DNA of 64,000 nucleotides from Siphlonurus alternatus (Eukaryota > Arthropoda > Insecta > Ephemeroptera > Siphlonuridae): contig OX463787.1 of the NCBI GenBank assembly GCA_949825025.1, positions 3,410,001 through 3,474,000 on the forward strand, written 5' to 3'. The position numbers were made by a program, and so were the translations under genes. The notes below the pieces were generated by a model, which did not search any database, was not told the DNA's origin, and saw nothing but the letters and a program-made list of their open reading frames with translations. Each line of letters begins with the position of its first letter. Positions within the stretch are counted from its first letter, which is position 1. This document shows, piece after piece, positions 4,001 through 62,713 of this stretch.

Positions 4001-7000
4001 AATAATTATTCTATTGAATTGTTTATTTTTTAATAAATTTTAAATATAATTTTTTTATTTAATCTAATCAAATACACTTCTAGGATTATTATTTATTACT
4101 ATTATTTTCAAAGTGTTTTTTTATTTGTTGGAAAATGACAATAAATTATATATAATTTTTTTTTATGAAGAAATAAGTTATTTTCATAATTCTTACCCTG
4201 TAACCTGGCTATTAAATTTGATTTAGAATTGGAATTTTTCATTGCTTTAGCAGAATTAAAAGTAATTAAAATAATGAACTTTAAAAGTATAATATGTGTA
4301 ACCCATAATTTGGATTAAATGTATCATTATAATGCAGGGAGTTTTGGCTTTAAAATAAATTTTCTAATTTGAGGAAAAATTTCTTGCTTGAAAATTGAAA
4401 ATAATATAATAATATCTCTAAGTACATGGAGATGTTTCCAAATTTATATCTCTTTAATAAATACTGAGAAAAAATAAAAGCAAATTTTCTAACATGGAGA
4501 CTTATGGAGAAAATTGTATTGACAGTGAACATAGCATTTCTACAATTTAATCTTAATAATTATCTTAAATTAAAAAAAGAAATTATGTATTAAAAAGATT
4601 ATCTAATATAATAAAAAAAATCTGCCAAGGCCGAGACTTGAACCATAGTTTCTTTGATTCAACTGGGCTCCGTAACAAGGTTGTAACGTTAACTTGTGTT
4701 TAAGATAACTCTGACTTCCGCGGAGTGGTGGAGAAAGAATTCCTCTTCCAGACGATCAGCAACGCCGCCTTCTCTGTGGACACTTTCTTCTTCATTAGGT
4801 ACTTTCTAATTACCTGCTGGTGTTTTGTAACTTTGATTTGTACAGAGAAACTATCAATAAAGATTTGTATTACATCATAATGTAAGGAAAATATAGCGGT
4901 AATGATTTTTATTAACATTTTAATTTTATTAAAATCAAAATTTTGACATTTAGATAACAATTTTTGTATCTATTTGTAATTAATTCATTTATTAATTAAT
5001 TTTATTTTTTTTTCATTTTTGTAAGTGGGTTCTGAGAAGGGAAATTAACAATATTAAGTAAATAAACATTCATTCTATTCACAAATCCAGATTTATTAGA
5101 AAATCTACACGCGATTTCTTTATGGTATCTGCAGAAATTGTAAATTATTTTGATAACTAAAAAAAAAAAAAAAAACTGCAAAAAAATGTAATTTTTTTAA
5201 ACTATGTTCATTTTTTGTACCTTTAAAACTATTATATAAGTGATAGATACGTACGTGATCGTGCATATGCCTAAACTTATTTAAAAAGAATAATGAACTG
5301 TGACTTTATGATCTTTGTAGGCCTGATTTTATTGAGGGGATGAGGGACCTCGCCAGACACCAAAACCAGCATTGAATTATTACCATGAATATTCCGTCCA
5401 GAATTTTAGAGTTTCTATAATATAGTCTTGCTAATTGTATTTCAGCTTTGCAATTTCAAATATAGGTCTCGCAATACTTTTATTGTAAACCTTTGTGTTA
5501 TAATATATGTCGTCCCTCATCCCTAGTCCGCAATAATGTGCTATCTGCTACCACGATTACGTAATGGGCGTGATTCACGAAGCAGTTAGCCAGGTTTCTA
5601 ACCACGTTTAACTAGGGTGCTTTAACGCGTAAAACAGTTATATTTAAACGTGATTAAGCTAAACGTGGTTAGAAACCTGGCTAACTGCTTCGTGAATCGC
5701 TCCCATTATTGCTATTTCAGGTGAGAGCAACAATGAACTTTCACCTATATCACTTGATATGGCAAATAACTCATTATTGCGTACTAGGGACATCAAAACT
5801 AAATTACAATCAGAATAGCCACAAACTTCGGATGGAACATAAACAGAGTTGACTCTAATGGTTGCCATGGTTACAGCGGACTGTTGTTTTCGTTCCTCTA
5901 TTTCCGGACGGCGGCCAAGGTGGACCTCAACATCATCACGAGGGCCACGGGACTCAAATCAAAGTTCCTGCAGTTCGTCGGAATGATGGCCTACCGATTT
6001 GGAAGGTGAATATTAGCGGTGATCCATTAATGATCGCTGCAGTTTGTTAGAGGTCAAAAGGTTTATTGTTAGAGGCAGAGTCTTCTGCGCGCAATGTTTC
6101 TAACAAAACATTGTTCTGAACAATGTTTTGTTAGAAACATTGCGCGCAGAAGACTCTGGTTAGAGGTCAAAATAAAAGTTAATTGTTTACATTTTCTAGT
6201 TCAGAGGCTCACCTCAAATAATTTGTTGAAAAGTTTGCTTGGTGTGGAAATCTTTGCCTCTAGAGCTTCGGTCATTAAATGGAGTATTGACCTCAAATTT
6301 TTTTATTGCAGAAATGGATAGAGCATGCAAAGTTATGCTACCCTGATTTTTTTCAGATTTTTTAGAGCCCAGGAACTATTTTTAAAAAATTATTGAAATT
6401 TATTTTCGTGACGTCACGAGACGCCGCTCCTTAAGAAAAAGATAGGACTTACCGCCACGTGACGTCACAAAAAGGACTTTCAATAATTTTTTAAAAATAC
6501 TTCCCGTCGCCTTTGCACCCTCTATCCATTTCTGGAATAAAAAAAATTGAGGTCGATACTCCATTGTATAAGTATATTATAGTGCTATAATAATAATATG
6601 GTAAGCTTAAATCACATGGACAGAAAATAAAAATTGCATTCAAATAAGTAGACTAGTATTTAGCGATAATTATTTATTTTCATAGTTTTATAATACTTAC
6701 TAAAAAGAAACATGAAATTTTTTATAATTTTTAATTGAGCATAAATTAAGTATTGAATAAATAATTTCATGTAAATTAAATTTATTTAAATAAATTAATA
6801 AATAATGAAATATATTAGTCATACAATATATAACTAATTAATGAAATAAATATTATAGTTTATTTTATGTTATATAATTACGTATTTTTTTTTTACTTTT
6901 TCCCCTTGTAAAAAAGTTCTGTAATTAATCATAAATTAATTTGCATTAATTTATAATTCATTATACTTTTTTATAACTATGTTTTACGAAGGTTAAAAGG

Positions 7001-21700: not shown

Positions 21701-24700
21701 GATGACTTTTTTCCGCTCTCTACTAATAAGGCATTCCTTCAACACATTTATAGTTCTTACCTTGGGCTTTGTCCAAAGATGGAAGATGTTGATGGCTTGC
21801 TACCTGGAGTAAGTGAGAATGGATTTGAGGCAGCTGGAGTGCCACCACCTCCACCAAACAAGTTCTTACTAGCCGAAGATTTAGTTTCAAATGGACTACA
21901 AGCTTCTGAGCTGCCGAATAAGTTTCCACTTTTATCTGCAGCATTTGGAGATTGCCCTCCGAAAATTGTAGCAGGTGATTTAGCTGCAAAATTTGATGAT
22001 CCAAACAATGAACCTCCCGAAGATCCCATCATTCCTCCGAATAATGAAGTTACTTGAGATGAAGAGTCTGGAGATGTAGCAACTTGACCGAATACGTTTG
22101 TTCCAAACGCACTCGGAGTTGAAGTTGTCACAGGGGTTTCTCCAAATGCATTTGTAGGTTGTCCAAAAGCTGAGGAAGTTCCAAATACAGAGGAAGTTGA
22201 AGAAGTTGGAATACTACCACCGAAGACTGATGGTGATGTTGCAGCATTTCCACCAAATACAGATGTAGTTGTAGTTTGTCCTCCAAAATTACCAGTTTGT
22301 CCAAATAGCGGAGGAGAAGGCGTTACGGTAGGAACACCGAAGACAGAACTTGCTGTAGTAGGAGCAGTTTGTCCAAATACACTCGCAGTAATTGCACCTC
22401 CACCGAATACTGATGGAGTACTGGTAGGCTGGCCAAAGATGGAAGTTGTTCCTGTATTTCCACCAAACACAGTAGCTGCACTTTGTGGGGTTTGTCCGAA
22501 TACATTGGTGGGAGTCGTTACTTCGGTTTTAGCAGCAGATCCAAACACTGATGGTGTACTGATAGTGGGAGCAGTTTGACCGAAAATATTCTGTCCAAAT
22601 AATGATGTCGAAATAGTTTCACTAGTTTTGATTGGGGTCTCCACCGTGGTACTCGGTTTTATTTCTTCTGGTTTATCAGTTGAACTAACATCAGAACTGG
22701 AAATTTTATCTTCTGTTGACGAATCTTCTGCAGGTTTCACAACTTCAGGGGTAACTTTCACGGCAGGTTTTTGTATTTCAGTCGTTGATAAATTTAAAGG
22801 CTTGCTAGGTTGACTTTCTAATATTGATGATGGTGTACTTTGAAGTGTAATATTAGATGTTTCAGAACTAGCTTGTCCAAATATTGGTGTAGATGGTTTT
22901 CCGGTCGTAATTTTTGTTGGTGTGGATGTTAATTGATCTCCAAATAGAGAAGTTGGTGGGGTGGTGCTGAAGGACATAATTGGTTTTTGAGCCGTTTCAA
23001 GATTTCCAAAGAATGATTTTTGCGGTTCAGATTTTGTTGTATCAATTATTTCGGTTGGGGTATTTGGCGGTGCTTGAGAGAAAAATGTTGATTCAGACTG
23101 AGCTTTGTCAGAACTAGTAGCTGGAGTACCAAAGAAAGATGTAACAGGGCTCTTCTGACGTTCAGGTATTGCTCCAAACAGACTTGTTGAATCAGTTTTA
23201 GGAAATGTTGATTGTTGTTGTTCTGGTGCTGATCCAAATAATGCCTTTTCAGATGAGAAAATTGACGAACTTGGTTTCTCAGATCCTGTAAGAGGTTGAC
23301 TGAAGATTGATGGTGTTGCTTTAGTTGTACTGCTGAAGTTTAGAGAAGGGGCAGACTGTGCAGCAAACCCAAAGTTGAACCCCGTGTTCTGCTGAGTGCC
23401 AAAGAAGCTCGGAGTTGTAACAGAAGAAGTTGATGTGGCTTGACTCGTACCGAATAACGTTACGACTATTGGAGTTCCGTGAGCTGGAGGTGCCGATACC
23501 GTTATAAACGAAGCTTTAGGAGGTGGGGCAGCAAACTGGTTTGCAGTGGTAGCAGGAGTCATTTGTACAAAACTGCTAGGTAATGTTGATGTAGTAGGGG
23601 GTAATTTAAAAGCAAATGATGTACTTTGAGCTACAAAAGATGGTGTTGCTTCTTTTGTTGGTTGGAATGCCTGACTAGTTTGAACGACAGGTGATATCGG
23701 TGAGGTTTTAGGTTGGTATATTGTCGAGTTAGGTGTTTTGTTAGTTGAACTAGTGAAGGCATATTGAGGAGGTAAGGACGGAATGGGTTTTCTTTCAGCT
23801 AGCGCTATTGGTTTGTCTTTCAGGAACCTACTGAAGTTCTGTTCAAATTGCTGCGAGAGAGGGCGCAGAGAAGGCTGTGGCATGGGAGTGGAGGCAGGAG
23901 GAGAGTTCAGAGCATCCCTCAGTGACGACATGTCCAATATGGAGCTGTAACAATACGATTAAACAACAATAGCTCCATTTCCGTCCATAACGCCAATGTA
24001 GGCCTCAGTTTTCTCATAACTGATCTGACACTTCAAAATTTGCCAGCTATTGAGCTAAGTAATCTGCAAGTAATTCAAGGGGGCCGATTCCAAGATCTCA
24101 ATCAACTGAGGTCAATCCTTAAAACTTAACACTGAACTTCATGTAACTCTGTTTACACACAAAAAAAAAATATATTGGGGGGGGGGGGGCATTCAAAAAC
24201 ACTTTAACTTTAATTAACAGTTATATTGGATATAATTTTTTATATTTTATCACTTTCCACATACTTTAGTTTGCATTTACAGTTTTTATTACTTTGATGA
24301 AGCAATGGGTTGGTGCAGACACATTGACGATATAGGGAAATACAAAAGATAGGTTAAGAGTAACAATTTTAATTCTGGAATGTTCAAATTTTATCACGTC
24401 AGTTTTGATAGTATTTGACAAATAACTTAAAAGAATTTGGTTGGTGATGTGCATACGGACTGAGTTATTACGGTAGCAAGAGGAACAAAAATGTAACATT
24501 GTTTCCCTATACCACAATTTTGCTTCCTAATAACTCTGTATGTTTGTCACCAACAAAATTCTTTCAGGTTATTTGACAAATACTATCAAGACTATCTTGA
24601 TAAAATTTCAACATTTTTAGAAGTAAAATAAAGGCTTCCCGGACTGGAAATTTTTTAAACATAAACCAACATGTTAAAAAATTTGAATTTTTTCTCCGTA

Positions 24701-33700: not shown

Positions 33701-36700
33701 TGTTTTATTATCATTTTCTATTGTTCTATTATTCTGTAACTATTATATATGTTTTGTATGTATGTTTTATGTGTTCTATTGTAATGTTTTCTATAATGTA
33801 TGTTTCTAGTGCTGTTAAGGTAGAGATAATACGGATCAGCTGGCTCAATGCTAAAAAAATCCCATTCATAAAAATTATGAAAAAAATTTAAAATGTTCTC
33901 CTCTACATCCCCTATCAGTAGGTAAAATATCAGGTATACAAAAACGAGCTAGTTTTCGAGTTATGAATTTTTAAAGTTCTCTAATTTAACATGGAGAAAT
34001 GGAACTTCCATGTTAAATTAGTCAACTTTAAAAATTCATAACTCGAAAACTAGCTCGTTTTTGTATACCTGATATTTTACCTACTGATAGGGGATGTAGA
34101 GGAGAACATTTTAAATTTTTTTCATAATTTTTATGAATGGGATTTTTTTAGCATTGGGCCAGCTGATCCGTATTATCTCTACCTTAATATGTACACTTTC
34201 TGTGTTTAATAAAAGACTAATAATATTTTAGAACATAATGGGTATGATCCACTTTTATCTTTGCTGTTATAGAGTTTAGGCTGATGCTAATTTGTTGTTA
34301 GTGCGAAATGTAAAGAAACTATCATAATTTTGTAGCCAGTTTAATTGACTCCTGACGATGAGCTAGTTTCATTAGACTGGCTGCCAAAACTTCTACACTC
34401 TTTCTATGGTAAGAATGAGATATTAGAATGTGAAAATTTTGGTGGCTTAATCGAAAGAAGGGGTAAAAATATGGTACTGTACTGTGAATTTTTTCACATT
34501 TTTCTGAGACAGGGAACTATTTTTAAAAATTATTAAAAGTCTATTTTATGACGTCACGGGCGGCACTCCTTAAGAAAAAGGATAGGGCAGTGCCGCCCGT
34601 GACGTCATCAAAATAGACTTTCAATAAATTTTTAAAAATATTTTTCGGTCTCAGAAAAATATGAAAAAATTCACAGTACCATATTTTTACCCCTTCTTTC
34701 GATTAAGCCACTAAAATGTTCACATTCTAATATCTCATTGAGGATTATGTGGAGGACAATATTTTGTGACTTACGTTGCATTGGCAGTTGGTAGAGAGTT
34801 GATGAGGGTAACGTTGCCCGGTCCCTTGAACTCAAAAGTTGTGATCTTCCCATTTGTCAGGCACACACAGAGCAGGCCAGGGACGGCGGGGTTCCAAGCC
34901 ACCTGAGCAACACTTGCTCCCGGCTGAGACTCGAGAGCCATCTGACCTTGGGGAACTACATCCTGAAATACAAACACCTGGTTAGTCTCCTCCAAAGTCT
35001 TCTACTCGCAATTGTTGTAACAAACCATTGTTTATAATGTCTGTCGCATGATGCCATTTTCATTGTTAAACACGGGACGACGTAGTACCTAATTTTGCCA
35101 CCAGAGCAGAGAACGTAATAGCACTGTTGGCGCTAGGTAACTGTTTTAACTTCATAATTAATGGTTATTTTCCATTAGTTAACATGTAAATCAACAACCG
35201 TCCCATGTTTTTCCTTTCATGCGACAGACATTACACAATAATACAGTACTTTGTTTACTGTTTACTAACAACGAGCAGAAGACTTTAGTCTCCTCTCATT
35301 TTATATTTTCAAAAAAACTTATACAGTAAAAGCTTATTAGTACGCAACTTGTTAGGTGAAACTTGATTTAAAGTTTAGGAGATCTCGGTCCCATAAAGAA
35401 TAATACGCACTGCGTGGTATAGGAAAAACTTTATAAAATTCCTGGATTCCTTAATTGTAAGTAATAACAAGAACCCATGCTCCTTTTAGTCCTATATTTT
35501 TATTAAGAAATGACGCCTGTTGACGCCTCTCTCTCTGTACTTTCAATCATTTTTTTAAAAATAGTTTCAGGGCTCTAAAAAAATCAATGTAGCATAACTT
35601 TGCACTCTCTATTCATTTTTGTAATAAAAAAATTTCATACAGGTTTACTTTTTTTTTTTTTTTTTTTATTCCTTGATCCCTTGATCTGATATCAGCCGCT
35701 TTCCCTCCTTCCTTTTGCACTTCTACGTACATGCCCAGTGACGTCACTGATATTGGAAAGAGGTTGATCTCCATGCTCCGACTTTTGCTAATATCTGAAG
35801 TGGTGGGGGAAGCAAGTAGCTGATATCAGCGGGTCGATCGCGTAAGCTTTTTTTTTCGTTTAGGGGGGCGTGGCCATCGTTTTCATTTCGATAAAGAGGA
35901 CGAGTTCGATAAGTGCGATCATGTAAGCTTTCGTTTTCAATTCGTGTCGTTTCGAATTCGAGTCGTTTTCAAAACGATTCGACGAGGACAAGTTCGATAA
36001 GTGCGATCGCGTAAGCATTCGTTTTCAACTCGTGTCGTTTTCAAAACGATTCGAGCCGCAAAAATCACGTTTTGAAAACGAGTGCTATTTCCTACACGTT
36101 TGCTGAAAACGATGGCGTCACGTCATCTTAAATTAATGATTAAAAATACTTTAACGCTTCAAATCAATTTATAAAAGCTTCTAGAATGTAAAGAATGAAC
36201 CAATGTGCTGCGTGAACCTTCTAATTGCGATGATTAAACCTTCCAAAATTTATAAATAATTTGGAAATAAGGCGACATTAAAAGTGTCATAACTCCATGA
36301 ATTTTTCACACATTTAACTTTTAATCAACTCAATCTCATTTTTATAGTCTAAGGAAGAAGTGTACCAAATTTTAGCAACATTCATTTTAATTAATTAATT
36401 CATTTAAACGGGGCGAATAATGTTCGCGCCTCTCGAGCTCGGCAACGAACGTAACGTGATTTCATCGTGATCGTTTTCGACGGTTTTCGTGTTCGTTAGT
36501 AAACTCGACCATCGTTTAGCAAGAACGATCACGTGGGATATTCAAGCGATTTGATTGGTTGACAACGTAAATCTGGCAACCCTGTCGATCGTTTATGGAA
36601 AGTGTCGATCGTTCACGGAACGATCACTTTTTCGAGCTCGAACGTAAAACGAAAACGAGTTTTAAGTTACGTGATCGCATTTTCGTTGTCGAGCGTTGTT

Positions 36701-38945
36701 GATTGATCTTCAAAACGATATCGTTCTAAACGAATCGTTCAAATCGATAGCCTTACGCGATCGACCCCCTGGGCTTGAGAATATAAAAAAGACGTAGCCG
36801 TTATCTGTTTTCCACTGACCTGCTCTGTGAGGAAGTGCTGAGTGTTAAAGATGAGAGCGTGAGGACAACCAGAGCGAATCAACACGACGGCAAGCAGAGA
36901 GTCGTCACAGTTCACCGTGACATTGGTGATTCCCTCCACGGGAAGACAACGTCGAGGATACATCTCGGAGCCCTCGGTGCCTCCGTGAAGCAAGTCATAC
37001 GTGCGAACAGCTGTAACCAGTAATCTTGTTAGTACATACATAACATGATGCCATATCCCATTACGGGTTAAGCCAGCAGCATTATTACCTCGGACGTCCA
37101 CAGATACAGTCTAACAGATCTTAGAATACCTGTAGACTCTATGGCGCCAGCTCCAGACAGTCTAGACTGAATGGCGGCATCCATAAGATCCTTAATAATT
37201 ATTTTCAAGATGTCCGCCGCGCGCAGTTAATTAAATCTACACGTAAACTAAGATTTGTAATACTGTAGACTTCTACATTCTTACATGAACTATGTACATT
37301 ATTATCACATTACTATTCTTACTAAACTTGTTAGTAAAGATTATATATTTTTGTACTGTATATAGTGTATATATCAACAGATCAACAGTAATTTCATATT
37401 TTTACTTTCGGGAATTAAATATTTAAGGTAGAGATAACGCCGAACAGCTGATCGACGTAATGCCCTTTGATTAACATGTAAACCTTAGCAAATTGACAAA
37501 AATTCTGAAATTTTTTTGAGAGGCAGATATTAGTGCCTAAAATCCATAGAAAAAATTTCAAAACGATTTAACGAGCCGATTTTTTTTAATTAATTTTTTT
37601 AATTTTCAGCATAGGGCTTTCCCATGGAGAGCCAAACTAAAAAATTAATTTACAAAAATCGGCTCGTTAAATGTTTTTGAAACTTTTGCTATGGCTTTTA
37701 GTCACTAATATCTGCCTCTCAAAAAAATTTCAGAATTTTTGTCAATTTGCTAAGGTTTACATGTTAATCAAAGGGGATTACGTCGAACAGCTGTTCGACG
37801 TTATCTCTACCTTTAAGCATCACATTTATCAAGTTAACATTTTTTTTATCAATTATTAATTATTTTATTTTTATCAAAATAATTCACTTTTTTTATACAT
37901 AGGTTTGGATAGGAAGGTGGGAACATAAAAAAATCAACTGACTTGAAGTCTATTGTTTAAGTTATGAATATAAATTAGAATATTCTTGTCTGACGAACCT
38001 TGTAGTCCCGTAGGTGTGGCGATGAAGGTAAGGCCGAGACGACTTGCAGAGGCGACCAAATTCTGGGGAGAGTTTGTGACGTTGGGCCAGGCATCGTGGA
38101 ACACTCGCACCTTTGACGCAAGCTTGAACCGGAAATCCTGGAAAATAAAAAGGTTTTCACTTACTGTATGCATAATTATGCACATAATAATATACTCGGG
38201 GGGGGGGGGGTAATGGTAAGGGCTGGAGAAATGGTAAACTGAGTTTTCTTTGGCTCACAATTAATTTATTTGTTTATCACCATGCAAGTAAATGTGTCAA
38301 AAGCATTCTAAACATCCATGTCCACGATTCTAATGGTGTACAGTATATGCATATGTGTGCTAAAAAATTAATTGCTACCTGTTTAAACCTCAGTTAACCA
38401 TTACTGGATCCAGTTTTTAGCATTACCCCCCCTGTGACTGTACAATCTTTTAACATTTAACCTCAGAGCTATGCATATATCATATTCATACAGTACACAC
38501 ATATACTGTACACAAAAATACAGGATTCTGTATCATTAATTCAAATTCATTCCTGCACGTCATACAAAACATTTATGGCATTTAGAAATATATTTTTTAA
38601 TACTAAATGTATGATATTTAACGATGAAAGAATGCGGCTTACAATATATATATGTTATGTACAGTATGCATACGAGTTGAAGCTTATTGTCAGCGTCTGT
38701 CTGAATTTTCATGCTTCAAAATGGTTCTAAACTTGAATTTAGGTTTAATGATGCACTTAAATACATTTAGCGCATTTAGTGAAAAAAAAAATATGTTTCT
38801 ATTATTTCAAAAATGAAGTATTTTCCTTTTGAGAACGTTACTGTAGGCATACAGTATGCATATTATACGAAAACACAAAACATGCATGCACATTCCTATT
38901 AAGCAGACTCACCGTCACGTCGATGCAAATAGTTTCTTCTGACAT
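18787..38945 (-). CDS. Nup214: Nuclear pore protein Nup214, complete, 14 exons
   Basis: Exons in transcript order: 38945-38913, 38137-37999, 37010-36820, 34962-34775, 32968-32757, 31723-31603, 30648-30449, 29078-28892, 27281-26888, 26119-25932, 25242-24949, 23944-21761, 20523-20363, 19133-18787. All phases join, giving 1,612 residues. The N-terminal third (about residues 1-420) has beta-propeller hallmarks of Nup214: DFRFKLASKVRVF, VAWSPRGKQLVTGNCDGS, DDICYSSGDL, and an SANGMEVGVLG stretch followed by a Trp-rich turn and RAELPLEG. A Gln/Pro-rich linker follows. Then comes a predicted helical/coiled-coil region (about 555-715) that in this family binds Nup88/Nup62 on the cytoplasmic face of the pore. 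The remainder is an FG domain rich in SVFG, FGQ and SIFG repeats ending in FSSWR. The length is near that of insect orthologues. ATG 38945 was chosen because it opens a short exon whose donor matches phase 0 and lies just below an ATGGCG-rich promoter-like segment. Introns contain many mobile elements. Known role of the family: mRNA and protein export at the nuclear pore. Confidence 0.93.
19240..19352. mobile_element. Small foldback TGAGCTATCTGCTATTTCAG
   Basis: CAATAATGAGCTATCTGCTA then TTTCAGATGAGC pairs with TTATCTGAAACAGCAGATAG then CTTATTATT. Pieces of the same family flank nested insertions near 5530-5760, 26165-26640, 46555-46640 and 47885-48350. Confidence 0.65.
19814..20092. mobile_element. 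pogo-like MITE with internal insertion
   Basis: Left end CAGTAAAAACTCGTTATTAT and right end ACAAGTTTTTACTG. About 110 extra AT-rich bases follow the block TTACGTAATAACATAATG, compared with the 154-bp copy at 39769. Termini like CAGTAAAACCTCGTTAT are typical of pogo/Tigger elements. Confidence 0.65.
20642..20800. mobile_element. pogo-like MITE, TA-flanked copy
   Basis: CAGTAAAAACTCTTTGTTAC ... AAAAGTTTTTACTG, bordered by TA on each side. 159 bp, no coding capacity. Confidence 0.75.
26212..26544. mobile_element. Foldback related to family A, nested
   Basis: GGTTGCATTTTTTTATTTCA and inverse TGAAATAAAAAAATGCAACC close a 333-bp foldback with TTTTAAAACAGTATTTAAAT, GGGTGGTACTACCTGAT and a TGACGTCACGG centre. 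It interrupts a TCAGATGAGC-family element whose halves lie at about 26165-26211 and 26545-26640. Confidence 0.7.
27336..28006. mobile_element. Family-A foldback, copy 6, split by a TTAA element
   Basis: Left half 27336-27500 (AAAGGAGTACCGACC...) and right half 27839-28006 (...GGTCGGTACTCCATT) form one family-A copy. The break is at the CCTTAAGAA motif of the inner arm, where 27497-27842 is inserted. Confidence 0.8.
27497..27842. mobile_element. TTAA-flanked foldback nested in family A
   Basis: TTAAAGGTATACAGGCCTC ... GAGGCCTGTATGCCTTTAA, 346 bp with TTAA at both ends. Inner pairs include AATTACAAATTAGACAG and GACTTCG/CGAAGTC. Because the host family has a single TTAA in its CCTTAAGAAAAAG motif, the insertion site is read directly. 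Confidence 0.8.
28242..28569. mobile_element. Family-A foldback, copy 7
   Basis: Complete 328-bp copy with ends AATGGAGTATCAACC and GGTTGATACTCCATT. Confidence 0.87.
29220..29396. mobile_element. Foldback GGGGCATTCACAAAGC, 177 bp
   Basis: GGGGCATTCACAAAGCACTT then TAACCCC pairs with GGGGTTAAAGTGCTTTGTGA then ATGCCCC; inner CCTGGTACTAAACATGG also pairs. Resembles 5566-5704 and 12978-13097 in its TTCACRAAGC end. Confidence 0.75.
29752..30421. mobile_element. Diverged family-A copy split by an inserted repeat
   Basis: Left part TTGCAGAAATGAATAGAGGG to AAAAAATCAGAGG (about 29752-30002) and right part AATTTGGTGCCCTCTATTCATT then TCTGCAG (about 30376-30421). Between them lies an insertion of about 365 bp starting CCGCGTCTCGTTTAAAGAAT, rich in AACACT/AGTGTT motifs. 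Confidence 0.55.
30948..31260. mobile_element. Family-C MITE, copy 3
   Basis: TAGAAGCTTCAAGTCAGTTA ... CACTGACTTGAAGCCTCTA, opposite in orientation to the copy at 3574 (GAAAATTCCTTTACAGAAC inside). A second fragment of the family lies immediately left (30890-30945). Confidence 0.65.
31829..32183. mobile_element. TTAA-family-B foldback, copy 2
   Basis: TTAAGGGTAAGATAACGCC ... GGCGTTATCTTACCCTTAA, 355 bp. The two ends share the same G-to-A change, so the arms have been kept complementary. Confidence 0.88.
33815..34187. mobile_element. TTAA-family foldback TTAAGGTAGAGATAATACGG, copy 1
   Basis: 373 bp with TTAA borders, nearly perfect arms and loop around AACATGGAGAAATGGAAC. Shares CCCTATCAGTAGGTAAAATA with family B, so it is a sister family. 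Copy 2 is at 61040-61433; a half copy is near 17310-17520. Confidence 0.88.
34414..34739. mobile_element. Family-A relative with different ends
   Basis: Ends AATGAGATATTAGAATGTG and inverse; interior TGAGACAGGGAACTATTTTT and TGACGTCACGGGCGGCA match family A, but terminal 60 bases differ. It ends 36 bases from the Nup214 exon at 34775. Confidence 0.75.
35334..35470. mobile_element. pogo-like MITE, decayed right end
   Basis: TACAGTAAAAGCTTATTAGT, CGCAACTTGTTAGG and AGGAGATCTCGGTCCC match the other copies. The right end stops at GTAATAACAAG, after which half of a family-A copy (to about 35640) follows. Confidence 0.55.
35687..35831. repeat. Foldback with GCTGATATCAG ends
   Basis: CTGATATCAGCCGCTTTCCC at left and AGTAGCTGATATCAGC at right, with a central GTGACGTCAC. 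It abuts the CG-rich element on its right. Confidence 0.55.
35831..36768. mobile_element. 0.94-kb CG-rich foldback with repeated inner motifs
   Basis: Ends GGGTCGATCGCGTAAGC and inverted TACGCGATCGACCC. The left arm has repeated TTCGATAAGTGCGATC followed by GTAAGC, and repeated CGTTTTCAAAACGATTCGA. The right arm has CGATCGTT, CGATCAC and AAAACGA motifs in inverted sense. High CpG content contrasts with the intron around it. No coding frame of note. It lies in the Nup214 intron between 34962 and 36820. Confidence 0.65.
37423..37816. mobile_element. TTAA-family foldback TTAAGGTAGAGATAACGCC
   Basis: 394 bp with ends TTAAGGTAGAGATAACGCC and inverse. The interior GATTAACATGTAAACCTTAG and AAATTGACAAAAATTCTGAA pair with complements. 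The terminal 15 bases agree with 33815-34187 but the interior differs. Confidence 0.8.
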
Positions 38946-39922: not shown

Positions 39923-41025
39923 TATTATAATTTATATTAACCTTTTTTAGTTTTTAGCATATATTTTTTTTATAAATTGAATAACATATGGAATGAAGAG
40001 AGCATATGCACATAAAAAGGGGTTAAATAATTATTATAATAAAATTAAACAGATTTGAATTGACAAAAACAATAATTAAAGATGTATATTAAAGTAATCT
40101 GCATATATGGAGACACTTTTTTGCCTTGAACTGAACAGTAAAAATTCACTAAAAATACAAGCAATATGAACACACTAGTTTATGAAAAAGAACAATATAT
40201 TGATATAATATTTAAGGCACTTAATAATATAAACATGCTAAAAATAAGTCTTGCTAGTTAAAAAAAATGAATAATTTCACACCACATATTGTTATTGGGA
40301 CTGAGAGATACGCATTTGGTTTATAATGGATAACATTCATGAAATTTTTTTATTGAATTTTTGGATAAAGGACCTCATGCAATGTTGTCAATATTTTCTT
40401 CAGAACTTTTTAAACCGTCTCTCTAACAACATTAAAATTGTGCTTGAAATTGTTGTGACGTCATTCAAACACGACACCATATCCCTTGCAGGGTAAGCCA
40501 GCAGCATTACTACATCGGTCGTCAATATATAATCTTTGTCATTCAAATATTTAGCACACAAGCATAGGGAAAAATGTTGCATGACAATGACGTCACAGCG
40601 TCTTTCTTCTTGATTTTGAGGGTGTTTCAAGATTAAAAAAATGTAACAATACACCACTTCTGTCTTCAATACAAATATGCAATAAAAAAATTCATAAAAT
40701 CCATTTTGCATGCTTTTAATGAATTTTAAAATTTTTCTTATTGATCTCAAACATTGTAGTGGGAAAAAAAAAAAAAAAAATGATCCATTTTGATCCCTAA
40801 TAACTTACATAACTGTTATAAGAAGAAAAATACATATTATATATTATTGTGCGAATTTTAACAAGTGATATTACATTGAGCAATTGTTCAATATTTATGC
40901 AAGAGCAGATACATAGAGAGCTAAGGGGATGCTGTTCGATCCTTGTAAAGTTTCTAATAAAAAATTATCAATTGTTTAAATCATTAAAGCTTTAAATTAA
41001 CATATAGAAATTTCAATAGGACACC

Positions 41026-42186
41026 ATGGCGTCACAAAAAAAGAAACAGAATCAAGACAAGGGGATCATTGATAAAAAGCTCCATTCTCTAGAGACCAGA
41101 TCTCAACAGCTTATCCCACAAAAGATTATTTTGGCAAATGTAAAGACAACTCCTACACCTGCACTGACTATGACATTTGATGCAATTGCTGATGGTGAAA
41201 CCTTCAACTTTTTTGATTATTCAACACTGCTAGAACAAAGAGAGAAGGATGGGCTACTAGTAAAGGGTGAAAATTTAGCTGCACTCTGCAGGATCCATTC
41301 CATGTACACATACGTGAAGGCACCAACAATTATTTCATACATCAATGCATTAAATGCCATCAATAAAAACAAACTTCCAGTAGATCAAATCAGACAAGTT
41401 ACAAAGCAAGATGGAATTCATCTTAATGCTGTTGTTCCAACCTATGAAGAGATTAAAAAATGTGATCCATTTGTTGATAGTAGTATGGATCCTTATACAG
41501 TTAGTCAAAATCAAGCAAAAACTCTCCTGTTTTTTGCTATCTGTGCAGGAAAATCCAAACCTCAAGTGTTTGAAGAGTTCAAAGCTAGACGTATGAAAGT
41601 GTATGGACCTCTTATTGGTACAAGCCATGAGAGCACTTTTACTATAATGTGCAAAGAGTTTGAGCAAAACAAATATATCAGAGTGATGGTATATGAGATT
41701 GTAAAGGTGATGCAAAAGTCATTCATCTCCAAGGAATACTTGCCAGCTGTTGATGCTACTCTGAACATTTGGTATGGTGCTTTCATGGCTCATATCATGA
41801 TTATAATTGATGAAATCTTCAATGAGAGAATCTACATTGCATGCCATCCTTACCTTAGAAGAGAGGTGTCCCTCTTCTCCAAAGTGCTTGGAGATCTACT
41901 CCCGGATCCAGAATTTGGATACCTCAGAATCCGGAAGACTGACAATCCACTAGCAGCTTTGAGCCAGAGAGAGGTACCTCTTTTGTTTGGTCTAGCCGTG
42001 CATTTCAGGTGTGCAAAGTACCCCTCCATGTCCCAATACAGAGGAGCAGAACTAGTAGGAGAGCAGAAGACCCGACAGCTGGAGCTTATTGAATTTGATA
42101 AGCAATTCATGGCAGGAGTTAACAAGTCCTTCAGACATAGCAATAATGAAGACAAGGAGGAGGATGATGAAGATGAAGAGTTCTAG
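41026..42186 (+). CDS. Endogenous viral nucleoprotein-like gene (bornavirus-like), intact
   Basis: Single uninterrupted reading frame of 386 codons in the 4.8-kb gap between Nup214 and PFAS, in good start context (ACACCATGG). The first 30 residues are Lys/Gln-rich, the centre is alpha-helical and mixed hydrophobic, and the last 14 residues are highly acidic (Asp/Glu). Near residue 320 the stretch PLLFGLAVHFRCAKYPSM followed by SQYRGAE resembles the C-terminal-lobe signature of bornavirus-type nucleoproteins (aromatic pair, then P-[ST]-M-x-x-Y-R-x-[AS]). The length is also close to that of Bornaviridae nucleoproteins. No introns, no stop and no frameshift were seen. The stop is followed 75 bases on by an A tract of 27 bases. 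TTAACAT occurs both 22 bases before the ATG and directly after the A tract, as expected for LINE-machinery insertion of a captured viral mRNA. It could instead derive from a related mononegavirus family (nyamivirus- or artovirus-like), or be an orphan host gene. Viral origin is inferred from motif memory; no search was run. An intact frame implies a recent insertion or retained host use. Confidence 0.62.
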   Translation: MASQKKKQNQDKGIIDKKLHSLETRSQQLIPQKIILANVKTTPTPALTMTFDAIADGETFNFFDYSTLLEQREKDGLLVKGENLAALCRIHSMYTYVKAPTIISYINALNAINKNKLPVDQIRQVTKQDGIHLNAVVPTYEEIKKCDPFVDSSMDPYTVSQNQAKTLLFFAICAGKSKPQVFEEFKARRMKVYGPLIGTSHESTFTIMCKEFEQNKYIRVMVYEIVKVMQKSFISKEYLPAVDATLNIWYGAFMAHIMIIIDEIFNERIYIACHPYLRREVSLFSKVLGDLLPDPEFGYLRIRKTDNPLAALSQREVPLLFGLAVHFRCAKYPSMSQYRGAELVGEQKTRQLELIEFDKQFMAGVNKSFRHSNNEDKEEDDEDEEF

Positions 42187-42261
42187 GACAATGGTACAAT
42201 TATCAATGATTGTCCCATTCATGATTGCGTAGGTGTAGTTTTTTGGTGAAGGTTAGTTATT

Positions 42262-42298
42262 AATAAAAAAAAAAAAAAAAAAAAAAAAAATTTAACAT
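42262..42298 (+). other. Poly(A) tract and 7-bp direct repeat at 3' end of the virus-derived gene
   Basis: The sequence TTATTAATAAAAAA runs straight into an unbroken A tract ending at 42290, followed at 42292-42298 by TTAACAT. The same 7-mer lies at 40997-41003, just before the gene. A host mRNA retrocopy would show AATAAA 10-30 bases before the tail. Here the A tract begins inside the AATAAA itself, which fits a mononegavirus gene-end signal copied by polymerase stuttering on a U tract. The repeat is short and the region is AT-rich, so chance is not excluded. Confidence 0.45.
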
Positions 42299-42495
42299 TA
42301 GTAGCATACAAATTTTCTAATTTAAGTTTTTTTTTTTTTTTTTTTTTTTATTATTATGAATCTCAGTTGATTGAGAATTTAGGTAGAAGTTTAATATTGG
42401 TCTTTTGGAAGGAAACCGGAAATAGAGCTTTTATGAGAAAACTGCTAGATTGAATTTGATTAAACTACAAGCGATAAGTTTTAGAACATTCTCGA

Positions 42496-42952
42496 TTAAG
42501 GTATAACCTGAGAATTTGTCTGTCAAGGTCAAGAGGCGTGGCTATAGTGGCAACACTGTTTGCATTGGAATGCGCATAAATTTTTAGGAGTGGGTGGTGA
42601 CAACAGTCCTTGAGAACGTTGCCACATTTCTCATCACATATAGGAAACGATCATCGCCACGGTTCAAAATATATGAAAACAATTCAGAAAAATAGTCTAA
42701 AAAATTAGGTTTTAGTAAAAAAAAAAGTAAAAGAATCTGTTGTATAGTTTTTTTGCAATGCTAATTAACAAATTTAACATTGGAAGGATACAAAATTCTC
42801 ATTTAAATAAATTAATTATAATTAAACCAACGGTTAAAAAATTCCGAAAAAATTCAGAGCTAATTTGACGATTGTTGTGAGTCCACCAAATTAATTTGAA
42901 GAAAATCTGTTGTAGCGAATTTTTCGTCCAAATTTCTCAGGTTAAGCCTTAA
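42496..42952 (+). mobile_element. TTAA-bounded 457-bp element, copy 1
   Basis: TTAAGGTATAACCTGAGAA ... TTCTCAGGTTAAGCCTTAA. Unlike the foldbacks, the interior is not palindromic beyond the short terminal repeat. An inverted second copy at 57047-57504 matches nearly end to end, including GTGGCTATAGTGGCAACACT. Confidence 0.85.
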
Positions 42953-43442
42953 AAAAAAAAAAAAAAATCATTTGATTAGAAAATTATTCTTTGACTCCAG
43001 TAGTAACTGAGATTTATCGACAAACATTAACAATTCTAGGCTAGCATTTATCCCCACTCCCCTTTCCTATATAAACACATACACTACTAAAATTAATACA
43101 TCAGATTGAAAATCTGGAAAAGTACTAACAACAAATCCCTGTAATGTAAATTAGGGAAGGTAATTTTCTTTTCTAGTCTTCAAAACATACAAAAATAAGC
43201 ATCAACCATCCACCCCTAAAAAGTATTAAAAATTTAGCATTTTATGTTCGACAAATTAAAAATATATTTAAATTTAATAGAAATTTTACCTATAAAATTC
43301 TGTACCATTTAAAAATACACACACAACCTTTTTTTGTATTAATAGGCCATAATGAGATATCATGGATTCTGAGGTAAAAAAAGTTGAAACGAAAAATGAA
43401 AAGAAAAAAATTAAAACACTCAATTTCATAATTATGCTACCA

Positions 43443-43491
<49 letters not shown>

Positions 43492-43712: not shown

Positions 43713-46700
43713 TTAATTCTCACAGCTCCAAACAAATGCATTTTGGAACATACGTAACCATGGCGAATGAATTTGGTCCTTTTGGAGCCAATTCTGAGGC
43801 ATGTAAGGCCACTGCCAAGTCAGAGTGCACCTTTCAGGATGGGGCATCATCGCAAGATGTCTACCACATGGAGAACAAAGCCCTGCTAAACCTTCAGGAC
43901 TTCCGTTGGGATTCATTGGATATACCTGAGTTGGTTTACCTGAATCATCAATGTACCTGATAGCAAGACAGTTCTTGTTCTTCAAGTTCTGAAGTACTTC
44001 GTTGTCTTTGAAGGTGAATTTACCCTCTCCGTGTGCTACCCAAACTCCTAACGAACTACCTTCCATACCTTTTAGCATGATAGAAGGTGATTTTTCAATC
44101 TTAACAGTACTGAACCTACATTCGAATCTCTCTGATGTATTTTTTTCAAGTGTTATTTCAGGAATAGGGAATTCAGATTCAATATTTTCACCTACCCATC
44201 CAAGTAATGCCATAAGTTGACAACCATTACAAACACCTAAACTGAATGTATCTTTCCTTTGTACGAATTTCTTGAATTGAGATCGTAAATTGGGATGGAA
44301 AATCAAGCTTGCTGCCCAACCTTTTGCAGATCCTAAGACATCAGCGTAACTGAAACCTCCAGGGAAAATCAGGCCTTTGAACATATCAATATTGACTTTG
44401 GAGTCTAGTAGATCTTGCACTGTGATGTCCCATACTTCAAATCCAGCCATGATTAATGACGCTGCCATTTCTCGATCTCCGTTGATTCCTTCTTCACGTA
44501 AGACTGCAACTTTCGGAGGCGTATTGAGAGGTTTCAGAGGTTTTGGTACACTCTTTAAGTCAAATGCAATTTTGTAATTTGGACCCTGTCTTGTTTTCAA
44601 TGACTCATTTTCTTCCTTGATACAACTTTGATCAGCTTGCAAGAGCTCTAGCTGGTAACTTGTCTCTTCCCACGCATACAACAACGTCAACATTTTGTCT
44701 TCGATGATAACTTCATTGTTGACGGAGATTGTCACTAAGGATTCAGGTCCAAATGCTCCGGTATTTCCAATCTCAAAACAAGGAACATTTTTATCATTGA
44801 ATTTATCAACAATTTCTGTAGCATATTCTGGTTTAACTTCTAAAATCCATCCAAGTTCTTCAGTAAATAGAATTTGCAGTGGAGTATTGTTCTTGTGTTC
44901 AATATTAACATTCAATCCACAATTTCCAGCAAATGCCATTTCCAAGATACAAGTTATAAGTCCTCCGTCACTTATATCATGTCCAGATAGGATTTTCTCA
45001 ACTCTGATGAAATATTGTATGATTTCAAATGCTGTAGCGAGTTGTTTTGGATTTTCTACATCAGGTGTCTCATTCCCTAACTGATTGTAACATTGAGCTA
45101 ATGCAGTACCACCCAATCTGGACTTCCCGTTTGAGAGATCAACGTACAGTAATGTTCCTGTTTGTGGAAGTTTCAAATCTGGGGTAATGACACGTCTGAC
45201 GTCCGGGCACGGAGCATAACTTGAGATTACGAGAGTCCCAGGAGCTTTGATTGTCTGTCCTTCAACTCTTGCAGCCATGCTGAGAGAATCTTTTCCACCA
45301 TCCACAGCAATACCTAATTCATTCATGATCTTACACATTGCAGTACAAGCATCATACAAAGCTGCTCCTTCGCCGGGTAACTTGGCAGCCCACATCCAAT
45401 TTCCACTACATTTGACGTCTTTCAAGTCTGAAATTTGTGCCATGGCGAGATTAGTAAGAGATTCTGCTACGGTCATTCTAGCTCCCGCCGCGGGATCAAT
45501 CAGACCTTTGATTGGTTGTTCTCCAATAGCGGTAGCCAGACCTTCAACGTTGAAGTGTGACAACGCAGTGACGGCAACGTCGGCCAGTGGGGTATGTAAC
45601 GGTCCTACACATTGTTGTTGAGCGATCAGACCAGTGACACAACGGTCCACTTTGTTGGTCAGATACCGTTTGCTGGCAACGCTAGGGAGACGTAGGACTC
45701 TTTCTAATGCATCTCGGACTTGTAATGATTTTGGTAATTGTAACAAGGGTAATTTGACATTTGATCTTGTTAATATGTATGTTTTTTGTGGCATTTTTCC
45801 AAGTACAAGTTCTAAATCTAAATTAACAGGATAATTATTTAAATCTTCATTATCATTATTTAAATATTTATCTTCATTAATTTCAGTTTCCTCTGATAAA
45901 ATTACTTTTCCAGTACCTGTAACTCTACCTACAAAATTTATAGGACATCTTTCACGTTTTCCAATCATCTCTAGAACTTTCTTATCCTCAGCCTTACAAA
46001 GAAGAGCATCATTCTCTTGATACTCCGCTCCCCAAAGTTCAAGTACACTGATGGTCGGGTCTCCTAGTTGAAACCGTTGGGTGAATATCACGGCTCCTGC
46101 GGGCTCCACCAGTTCTTTGAGGACATTCCCGTTCCCTCCGGCTCCCTGATCGTGGATGCTACAGATAGGGTTACCGTCACGGCACTCCAAGCAGGCACGG
46201 ATCACACGGTGGAGTTTCTGCTCCATTTCGGCATCGCCACGTTGTACCGCTCCGAAGTCAAGCTCAGACTTGTTATCACCTTGCACCTAAAACATGTGAG
46301 AACTTTGTTATACTTACTTGTTAGTTTAAAAGGATTAAATAAATTACAAACTACAGAAATAATAGAGAAGAATGAAAATAATTTCTCTAACTTACAGGTT
46401 TAAGAAATCAATACAGTAATTCAATTAATTATAATAATGGAAGGAAAGTTAATCTTTTTTCTAGTGGTGTACTTTAAATTCTGGCAGTCCATTTTTTTTT
46501 TTTTTTTAATCATTCCTCGCCCAGAATAATGATTTATTTGTCTACCACTAACAAATACAATAATAAGCTTTCTGCTATTTCAGAGGAATGCAATTATGAG
46601 CTTCAAATTACAGATTATTATTGCATACAACTATGGTAGGCAGTATTACGACGGACGAGGCATGATATCATTGGGCAAAGCTCACCTCAACAGAGCTAGC

Positions 46701-53173: not shown

Positions 53174-53227
<54 letters not shown>

Positions 53228-55571: not shown

Positions 55572-57046
55572 TGAACCCTTCGTACAGCAGCGCGTCTAAG
55601 AATACTCTGCTCACGGATTTAGTTTGATAGAGATATTCTTAATAAGTTAATAGTTATCTCATCTAATAGTAGTTTAAAGTTTATAGAATCTAAAATATTC
55701 AGAGAATGACGGTTTCCAAAGAGGGTAATTCTATGAACGTGCAAACTCAAAATTCGCCGTTTCTCTATAGCTGCTCACATCTAGCTGTCTAAAGGAAAAC
55801 TTTTCTAGCTGTCGGCGCTAATCACCACTTATTGGTCACGCACTGCAATGAAGACCAGCATTACATTATTGACTAACAACTTTTTAATTTAGTGAGGTTT
55901 CATTCAATTGATATATGTATTAATATCACATATATTATAGAAACTTCATTCATTATTTGTGATATTTAATTGGCTTATAAAAATGAAATTTTTACACCAC
56001 ATGAAATCATTATTTAATGGTTCATGAACCTCTCAATTAAATTTAATTAAATAATAAATAATTAACTATAGGTGATGAACTCAGATATATATCAATTTAA
56101 ATTATCATGCATATATACTAATAAATTTGACATCTTTTTTGAAGTATAATAGACTGGATTAATATATTTATATGGCCTTTAAAATAAATATAACAGAATT
56201 TTTTAGATAGATTATATATTTATTTACAAACAATAATATAATAAGTGATTATGAACAAAATTATAGTGAACACAATGATTCTAAAATCTAACGACAAACA
56301 CTTTTACAATTATCAGATCTATATTGATGAACATAATAGATGAAACAAAAAAATAAACAGTTCAAGAAATAAGTATTGATTTAACTTGTCCATTTTCGTA
56401 TTATTGGAATACATGTACAGATCAATTTCCACATATTTTTTTATATGAGAAATTAAAAAAGAATTTACGATTAAAGATATCCGTTTCATATGTAAATTTT
56501 GGGATTGAAAAAAAGTTGGGTACCATCATTGTGGGGCATACCCTTCTTGTCTTCAAACACATGGCAATCCCATATGGTAAGAAACTTGATGTTAAAAAAA
56601 AAAAATAAAAAAATCAAAGAAGAAATTTTAAATTCCTGAGTCCTAGAAAATTAAATTTCATGGCAAGGCAAGAATGTGTGCAAGTGTGGTATATTTAAAA
56701 TACAAATATTTCAAGGCTGTGAGTTTGGCCTACAACATGGCTATAAAATAAATCTATATATTTTAATATACACTTGGAAAAAGGCACTAATAAACTTCAT
56801 TTCATATATTAAACTTTGAGTAACATTAAAACTTCAAAAATTGAAAATCAAAACACTATTTGAAGTCAGTAAGATTAAAATATACAAGGTTTTTATAATT
56901 TTAAGGTAAAATATATTTAAAATTTGTTTAGAATATCAGAGATTAAGGTTTCTTTACATACTACAATATTGCTAAAATTTGTACAATTAGATTAAAGATT
57001 TTAGCTGCTACATTTTGTTCTTAATCTGCATCATTTACGGCTTTTC

Positions 57047-57504
57047 TTAAGGCTTAACCTGAGAAATTTGGACGAAAAATTCGCTACAACAGATTTTCTT
57101 CAAATTAATTTGGTGGAATTACAACAATCGTCAAATTAGCTCTGAATTTTTTCGTAATTTTTTAACCGTTGGTTTAATTAAAATTAATTTATTTAAATGA
57201 GAATTTTGTATCCTTCCAATGTTAAATTTGTTAATTAGCATTGCAAAAAAACTATACAACAGATTCTTTTACTTTTTTTTTTAACTAAAACCTAATTTTT
57301 TAGACTATTTTTCTGAATTGTTTTCATATATTTTGAACCGTGGCGATGATCGTTTCCTATATGTGATGAGAAATGTGGCAACGTTCTCAAGGACTGATGT
57401 CACCACCCCCTCCTAAAAAATTATTCGCATTCCAATGCAAACAGTGTTGCCACTATAGCCACGCCTCTTAACCTTGACAGACAAATTCTCAGGTTATACC
57501 TTAA
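57047..57504 (-). mobile_element. TTAA-bounded element, inverted copy 2
   Basis: Reverse complement of the 42496-42952 element over its whole length, with TTAA at both ends. 458 bp against 457 bp, so the two are full-length members of one family. Confidence 0.88.

Positions 57505-62663: not shown

Positions 62664-62713
<50 letters not shown>

Follow-up and report, generated by a model that had tools for sequence, protein, structure and literature searches.

The window analysed here, the whole 64,000-nt stretch of Siphlonurus alternatus DNA at C10:3410001-3474000, belongs to a genome of 455.7 Mb in 102 contigs and carries an intact 386-codon reading frame between Nup214 and PFAS (Table 1). A sequence-only reading had placed the frame there, and exon matches on either side bear this out. 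PFAS lies on the minus strand with its C-terminal coding exon at 43713-46286, so the gene ends towards the insert. On the other side, Nup214 propeller exons, likewise on the minus strand, reach up to 38254. All five solved-structure chains matching the 37937-38254 stretch at E ≤ 1 were Nup214 (E 0.011-0.051), and at 34774-35001, where the 26 sequences at E ≤ 1 included other WD-repeat proteins, the best match was again Nup214 (E 3.7e-4). Judged from these matches, the insert sits outside both genes, on the upstream side of Nup214 and in head-to-head orientation with that gene, whose first exon was not located.

The frame runs from ATG to TAG, and the earlier statement that it carries no disabling change holds: it is free of stops and frameshifts. 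Chance would not account for this length: among 60 first-order Markov sequences as long as the window, no stop-free stretch exceeded 194 codons. The start context is GACACCATGG, which we take to be good. A short leader and trailer frame the coding sequence, and the poly(A) tail reported before is present as 26 uninterrupted A, separated from the right-hand TTAACAT by a single T. The insert thus has the form of one transcription unit with a poly-A tail at its end, as a LINE-mediated copy of a viral mRNA would.

Table 1. Coordinates of the insert and of the features around it, in window positions.
Feature	Position	Strand	Basis
FG-repeat exon	21757-23958	-	sequence
Open stretch with N-terminal propeller exon of Nup214	37937-38254	-	residues 15-70 of solved Nup214
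Older host repeat, left flank, outside the insert	40538-40700	.	77-88% identity in main matches scored
Left TTAACAT, putative target-site duplication copy	40997-41003	+	sequence
Putative leader (5' untranslated region) of inserted mRNA copy, 22 nt	41004-41025	+	between left repeat and ATG; inferred
Intact 386-codon frame, putative nucleoprotein-like viral protein	41026-42186	+	frame, CpG, C6 relative
Trailer, 78 nt, running straight into the A run	42187-42264	+	sequence
Putative poly(A) tail, 26 uninterrupted A	42265-42290	+	sequence
Right TTAACAT, putative target-site duplication copy	42292-42298	+	sequence
Young host repeat, ~460 bp, right flank, outside the insert	42495-42955 (end approximate)	.	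ends TTAAGG...CCTTAA
PFAS C-terminal coding exon	43713-46286	-	sequence match

The sequence-only reading had also described all other non-gene sequence here as battered by insertions. This is fair for the immediate flanks, the sole area checked, where a host repeat lies on each side of the insert. The left repeat, for which the best 40 of 2022 candidates were scored, is dispersed, with inverted second matches beside many copies, and appears MITE-like. The right repeat is younger: of 41 aligned rows, obtained by scoring the best 40 of 3012 candidates, 38 represent further copies at 98-100% identity. It is very abundant and probably a TTAA-targeting MITE, presumably piggyBac-like, and the window holds another copy at about 57042-57504. 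Scans for bacterial-type promoters and terminators and for Rfam families, and a tRNA scan of the right flank, yielded nothing useful.

Borders of the insert

Direct repeats and a poly-A tail on single-gene mononegavirus inserts are described as signs of LINE-mediated capture (PMC2912400, PMC3205384). Both copies of the TTAACAT said to bracket the insert are present, identical at 7/7 bp as a target-site duplication would be, and their weight as evidence is smaller than had been claimed. The motif occurs 30 times on the plus strand of the window, including an additional copy close by at 42774. When a 7-mer following an A run was sought in a 60-nt stretch 1.1-1.5 kb upstream, with the real site excluded, a comparable pair arose in 6 of 500 overlapping trials (~1%). 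Because the motif recurs in the window and the trials produce such pairs by chance, the direct repeat is suggestive rather than decisive. With one mismatch tolerated and two A of the tail counted in, it may extend to 10 nt; this longer version begins at a TTT/AAA step and would be compatible with a nick of the LINE type.

At the 3' end, none of 12 listed polyadenylation hexamers is present in 42187-42266, and the first AATAAA (42262-42267) overlaps the A tail. With no hexamer ahead of the tail and the first AATAAA running into it, this end agrees better with the end of a viral gene than with one formed by Pol II. In mononegaviruses the tail is made by the viral polymerase stuttering on a U tract, and an AATAAA that runs into the tail is what would be expected. 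The tail itself was dropped as an age clock: A or T runs of at least 20 number 11 in the window, the tail of the insert included, and since such runs are common a clean tail alone is no proof of youth. Uninterrupted A or T runs of 41-46 occur at window positions 43444-43488, 53177-53222 and 62669-62709.

A paralogous empty site was sought by aligning three repeat loci (L007, L008, L011) to the joined flanks and judging the others by their match ranges. There was none among the loci examined, and no flank match reaches across the insertion point.

Relatives of the encoded protein and CpG content

Searches of the whole 455.7-Mb genome yielded no parent gene, intron-bearing or otherwise, either with the protein (E ≤ 0.001) or with the DNA, a search from which very short exons could escape. 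No second DNA copy was found either, the sole DNA match of the insert being itself. That no host parent gene was found is likewise as expected of a LINE-mediated copy of a viral mRNA.

A single protein relative was recovered, on contig C6 (C6:10788684-10789541, minus strand; about 4957-5817 on the reverse strand of locus L014); the genome search aligned it to residues 204-343 at 27% identity (E 5.4e-9). Compared pairwise, the two proteins are identical at 42 of 164 positions (E 8e-14), and a reciprocal search with the C6 relative returned just these two loci at E ≤ 1. The similarity is significant in the C-terminal half only. The C6 open stretch comprises 287 codons. Where the part ahead of it would be expected, none of the frames matches the window protein significantly. 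A run of 72 codons, read in a different frame and overlapping the start of the open stretch, looks like the window protein by eye only; this apparent 5' part of the C6 relative lies beside an A run. The CpG observed/expected ratio of the C6 relative is 0.52. It is apparently an older, broken insert with a disrupted 5' end, and its divergence from the window protein implies either at least two separate captures of such genes or an old duplication.

The window protein had been credited with a C-terminal signature resembling bornavirus-type nucleoproteins. This was not borne out by any profile, sequence or fold match. The nucleoprotein profile search that had been proposed, run here as Pfam including the bornavirus N profile BDV_P40, returned no viral nucleoprotein, BDV_P40 was absent from the scan of the frame, and neither the window protein nor its C6 relative matched a curated nucleoprotein family. 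In the genome, BDV_P40 gave nothing at E ≤ 1 and the mononegavirus polymerase profile PF00946 nothing at E ≤ 0.01; since control genomes stayed silent with both profiles, their absence from this genome is not proven by these searches. Membership of the bornaviruses was accordingly rejected as unproven.

Other databases were equally quiet. Among sequences of solved structures there was no credible match (best E 0.34 with the protein, to PARP-1; 0.14; and 0.052 with a two-row profile, to Hsp104). NCBIfam gave no match and PHROGs one at E 1.1, and viral contigs and phage records held no relatives of the frame. Across Pfam, solved structures, viral contigs and phages there was thus no significant similarity to a known virus, animal-virus proteins being covered through Pfam and solved structures only. 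Structure models predicted from one and from two sequences reached pLDDT 32 and 33, too poor for use, and fold comparison was dropped as identity evidence; fold searches with the two-sequence model, whose pLDDT is too low to mean anything, gave nothing below E 0.06.

The frame contains 7 CpG (observed/expected 0.16). Recoding the protein with host codon usage, drawn from two exons of the window, gave 34.7 ± 4.8 CpG with a minimum of 17 in 2000 recodings, and shuffling the frame's own synonymous codons gave 22.6 ± 2.7. In PFAS and Nup214 exons, five stretches of 1158 bp hold 20-45 CpG. The depletion is the best sign of an RNA-virus origin. Two observations speak against it: the equally low CpG of some AT-rich DNA, namely at 57.5-58.4 kb of the window and in some tiles near the C6 relative, and the ratio of 0.52 in the C6 relative itself.

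Origin and age of the insert

We consider it probable that the insert arose recently as a processed copy of a single viral mRNA, probably that of a nucleoprotein, from what would most likely have been a mononegavirus-like virus. The earlier proposal of a captured viral gene stands in part: mRNA-like borders, the failure to find a host parent, low CpG and the C6 relative all point towards it, and its bornavirus-type identity is not supported. The term nucleoprotein is itself a likely guess, made because of the size of the protein, the single-gene poly-A anatomy, the acidic tail at the C terminus and the N copies that such viruses are known to leave behind. Poly-A tails are described on mononegavirus mRNAs and not on bunyavirus mRNAs (PMC6932829), and mononegaviruses are favoured over bunyaviruses because of this feature.

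In the mechanism we propose, a germ-line cell would have been infected by an RNA virus with polyadenylated mRNAs, most likely mononegavirus-like. The enzyme of a host LINE-type retrotransposon would then have reverse-transcribed one mRNA, probably that of the nucleoprotein, by target-primed synthesis, primed where AT-rich DNA upstream of Nup214 had been nicked. The outcome would have been a leader, the whole frame, a trailer, an A tail and a short duplication left at the site, and the frame would still be intact as the insert is young.

Youth was the first of two explanations offered previously for the intact frame, and it agrees with both the neutral survival figures and the low CpG. In simulations in which indels were assumed to occur at 0.12 per substitution and four-fifths of them to disable the frame, the probability that the frame stays intact without selection is 0.73 at 0.2% divergence, 0.47 at 0.5%, 0.23 at 1%, 0.04 at 2% and 0.013 at 3%. 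The frame also offers many routes to new CpG: 86 transitions and 77 transversions are synonymous and CpG-creating, and 12 possible synonymous changes would remove one. On a rough estimate, which assumes ordinary host mutation and ignores the few losses, silent drift would be expected to add ~12 CpG at dS 0.2 and ~19 at dS 0.3, versus 7 in all. Because survival falls quickly with divergence and few CpG have been regained, we infer that the insert is young and that youth accounts for its intactness. Intact frames of this kind may reflect recent insertion and not selection, as the 2010 survey puts it (PMC2987831).

The second explanation, use by the host, would make the insert an older viral capture kept under purifying selection, for example as a dominant-negative blocker of related viruses, with transcription coming from the Nup214 upstream region. 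An intact frame with what we take to be a good start context suits this idea, as does its position ahead of a housekeeping gene encoded on the other strand. There is also precedent, bornavirus-like N genes being described as kept for >83 My in afrotherians (PMC4982594). A host antiviral role of the captured gene is possible. The count of 7 CpG, however, falls short of what drift at dS 0.2 or 0.3 would have added by itself, which speaks against a long period of co-option (dS beyond about 0.2-0.3), and the tail and repeats look undecayed. We regard co-option as unlikely.

Also unlikely is an origin from another viral or mobile-element gene, such as that of a phosphoprotein, a matrix protein, a gag-like protein or the nucleoprotein of another negative-strand order. 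Such an origin would sit easily with a protein that no profile identifies and whose predicted models are so poor. Against it, the size, the acidic C-terminal tail, the single poly-A gene and the similarity confined to the C-terminal half suit a nucleoprotein, none of them decisively.

A retrocopy (processed pseudogene or retrogene) of a host gene, whose A tail and flanking repeats would look alike and for which the one sub-threshold Pfam score (CDC37_M, residues 66-145, E 0.0059, 17 bits versus a cut-off of 25) might speak, is very improbable: no parent exon was found by protein or DNA although a young copy should match almost exactly, CpG is far under that of the compared host exons, the usual polyadenylation hexamer is missing ahead of the tail, and the C6 relative has no Pfam match, CDC37_M included. 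A CDC37-like host protein was rejected on the same grounds, the score being below threshold and not common to the C6 relative.

Returning to the captured viral mRNA, a more speculative extension, to which we give a low probability, is that the insert comes from negative-strand RNA viruses of a lineage not yet described, with an N that current profiles miss. The copy, which could still encode full-length protein and lies head to head with Nup214 on its upstream side, would then be expressed and interfere with the virus in the germ line.

Comparison with known viral inserts

In vertebrates, N genes inserted singly and bearing a tail and direct repeats are described as well known (PMC2912400). 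The bornavirus-like EBLN elements resemble the window insert in comprising one intronless viral gene of similar size, with poly-A, short direct repeats, which are suggestive in the window insert, and sometimes an intact frame, as set out in PMC2912400 and PMC2987831; they differ in that the window frame has no detectable similarity to the bornavirus N profile. The co-opted EBLN of afrotherians is likewise an intact N-derived frame in a host genome, the N identity of the window frame being putative. For the afrotherian gene, >83 My of negative selection and protein expression are described (PMC4982594).

If the favoured account is true, the insert would be a near-fresh, full-length fossil of a single RNA-virus gene, with both borders visible, that was missed by the nucleoprotein profiles searched. 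Such inserts date and place virus-host contact and reveal the retrotransposon machinery capturing viral mRNAs. If young, this one could reveal polymorphism and early host use before decay or selection blurs the record.

Rhabdovirus, chuvirus and other negative-strand inserts of arthropods also resemble the window insert: according to PMC2987831 and PMC10675110, both ticks and mosquitoes carry nucleoprotein inserts, in some of which the NP frame is intact. The window protein, by contrast, matches no Pfam N family. In the 2010 survey, neither a tail nor a target-site repeat was seen at any insect insert (PMC2987831); the window insert seems to have both.
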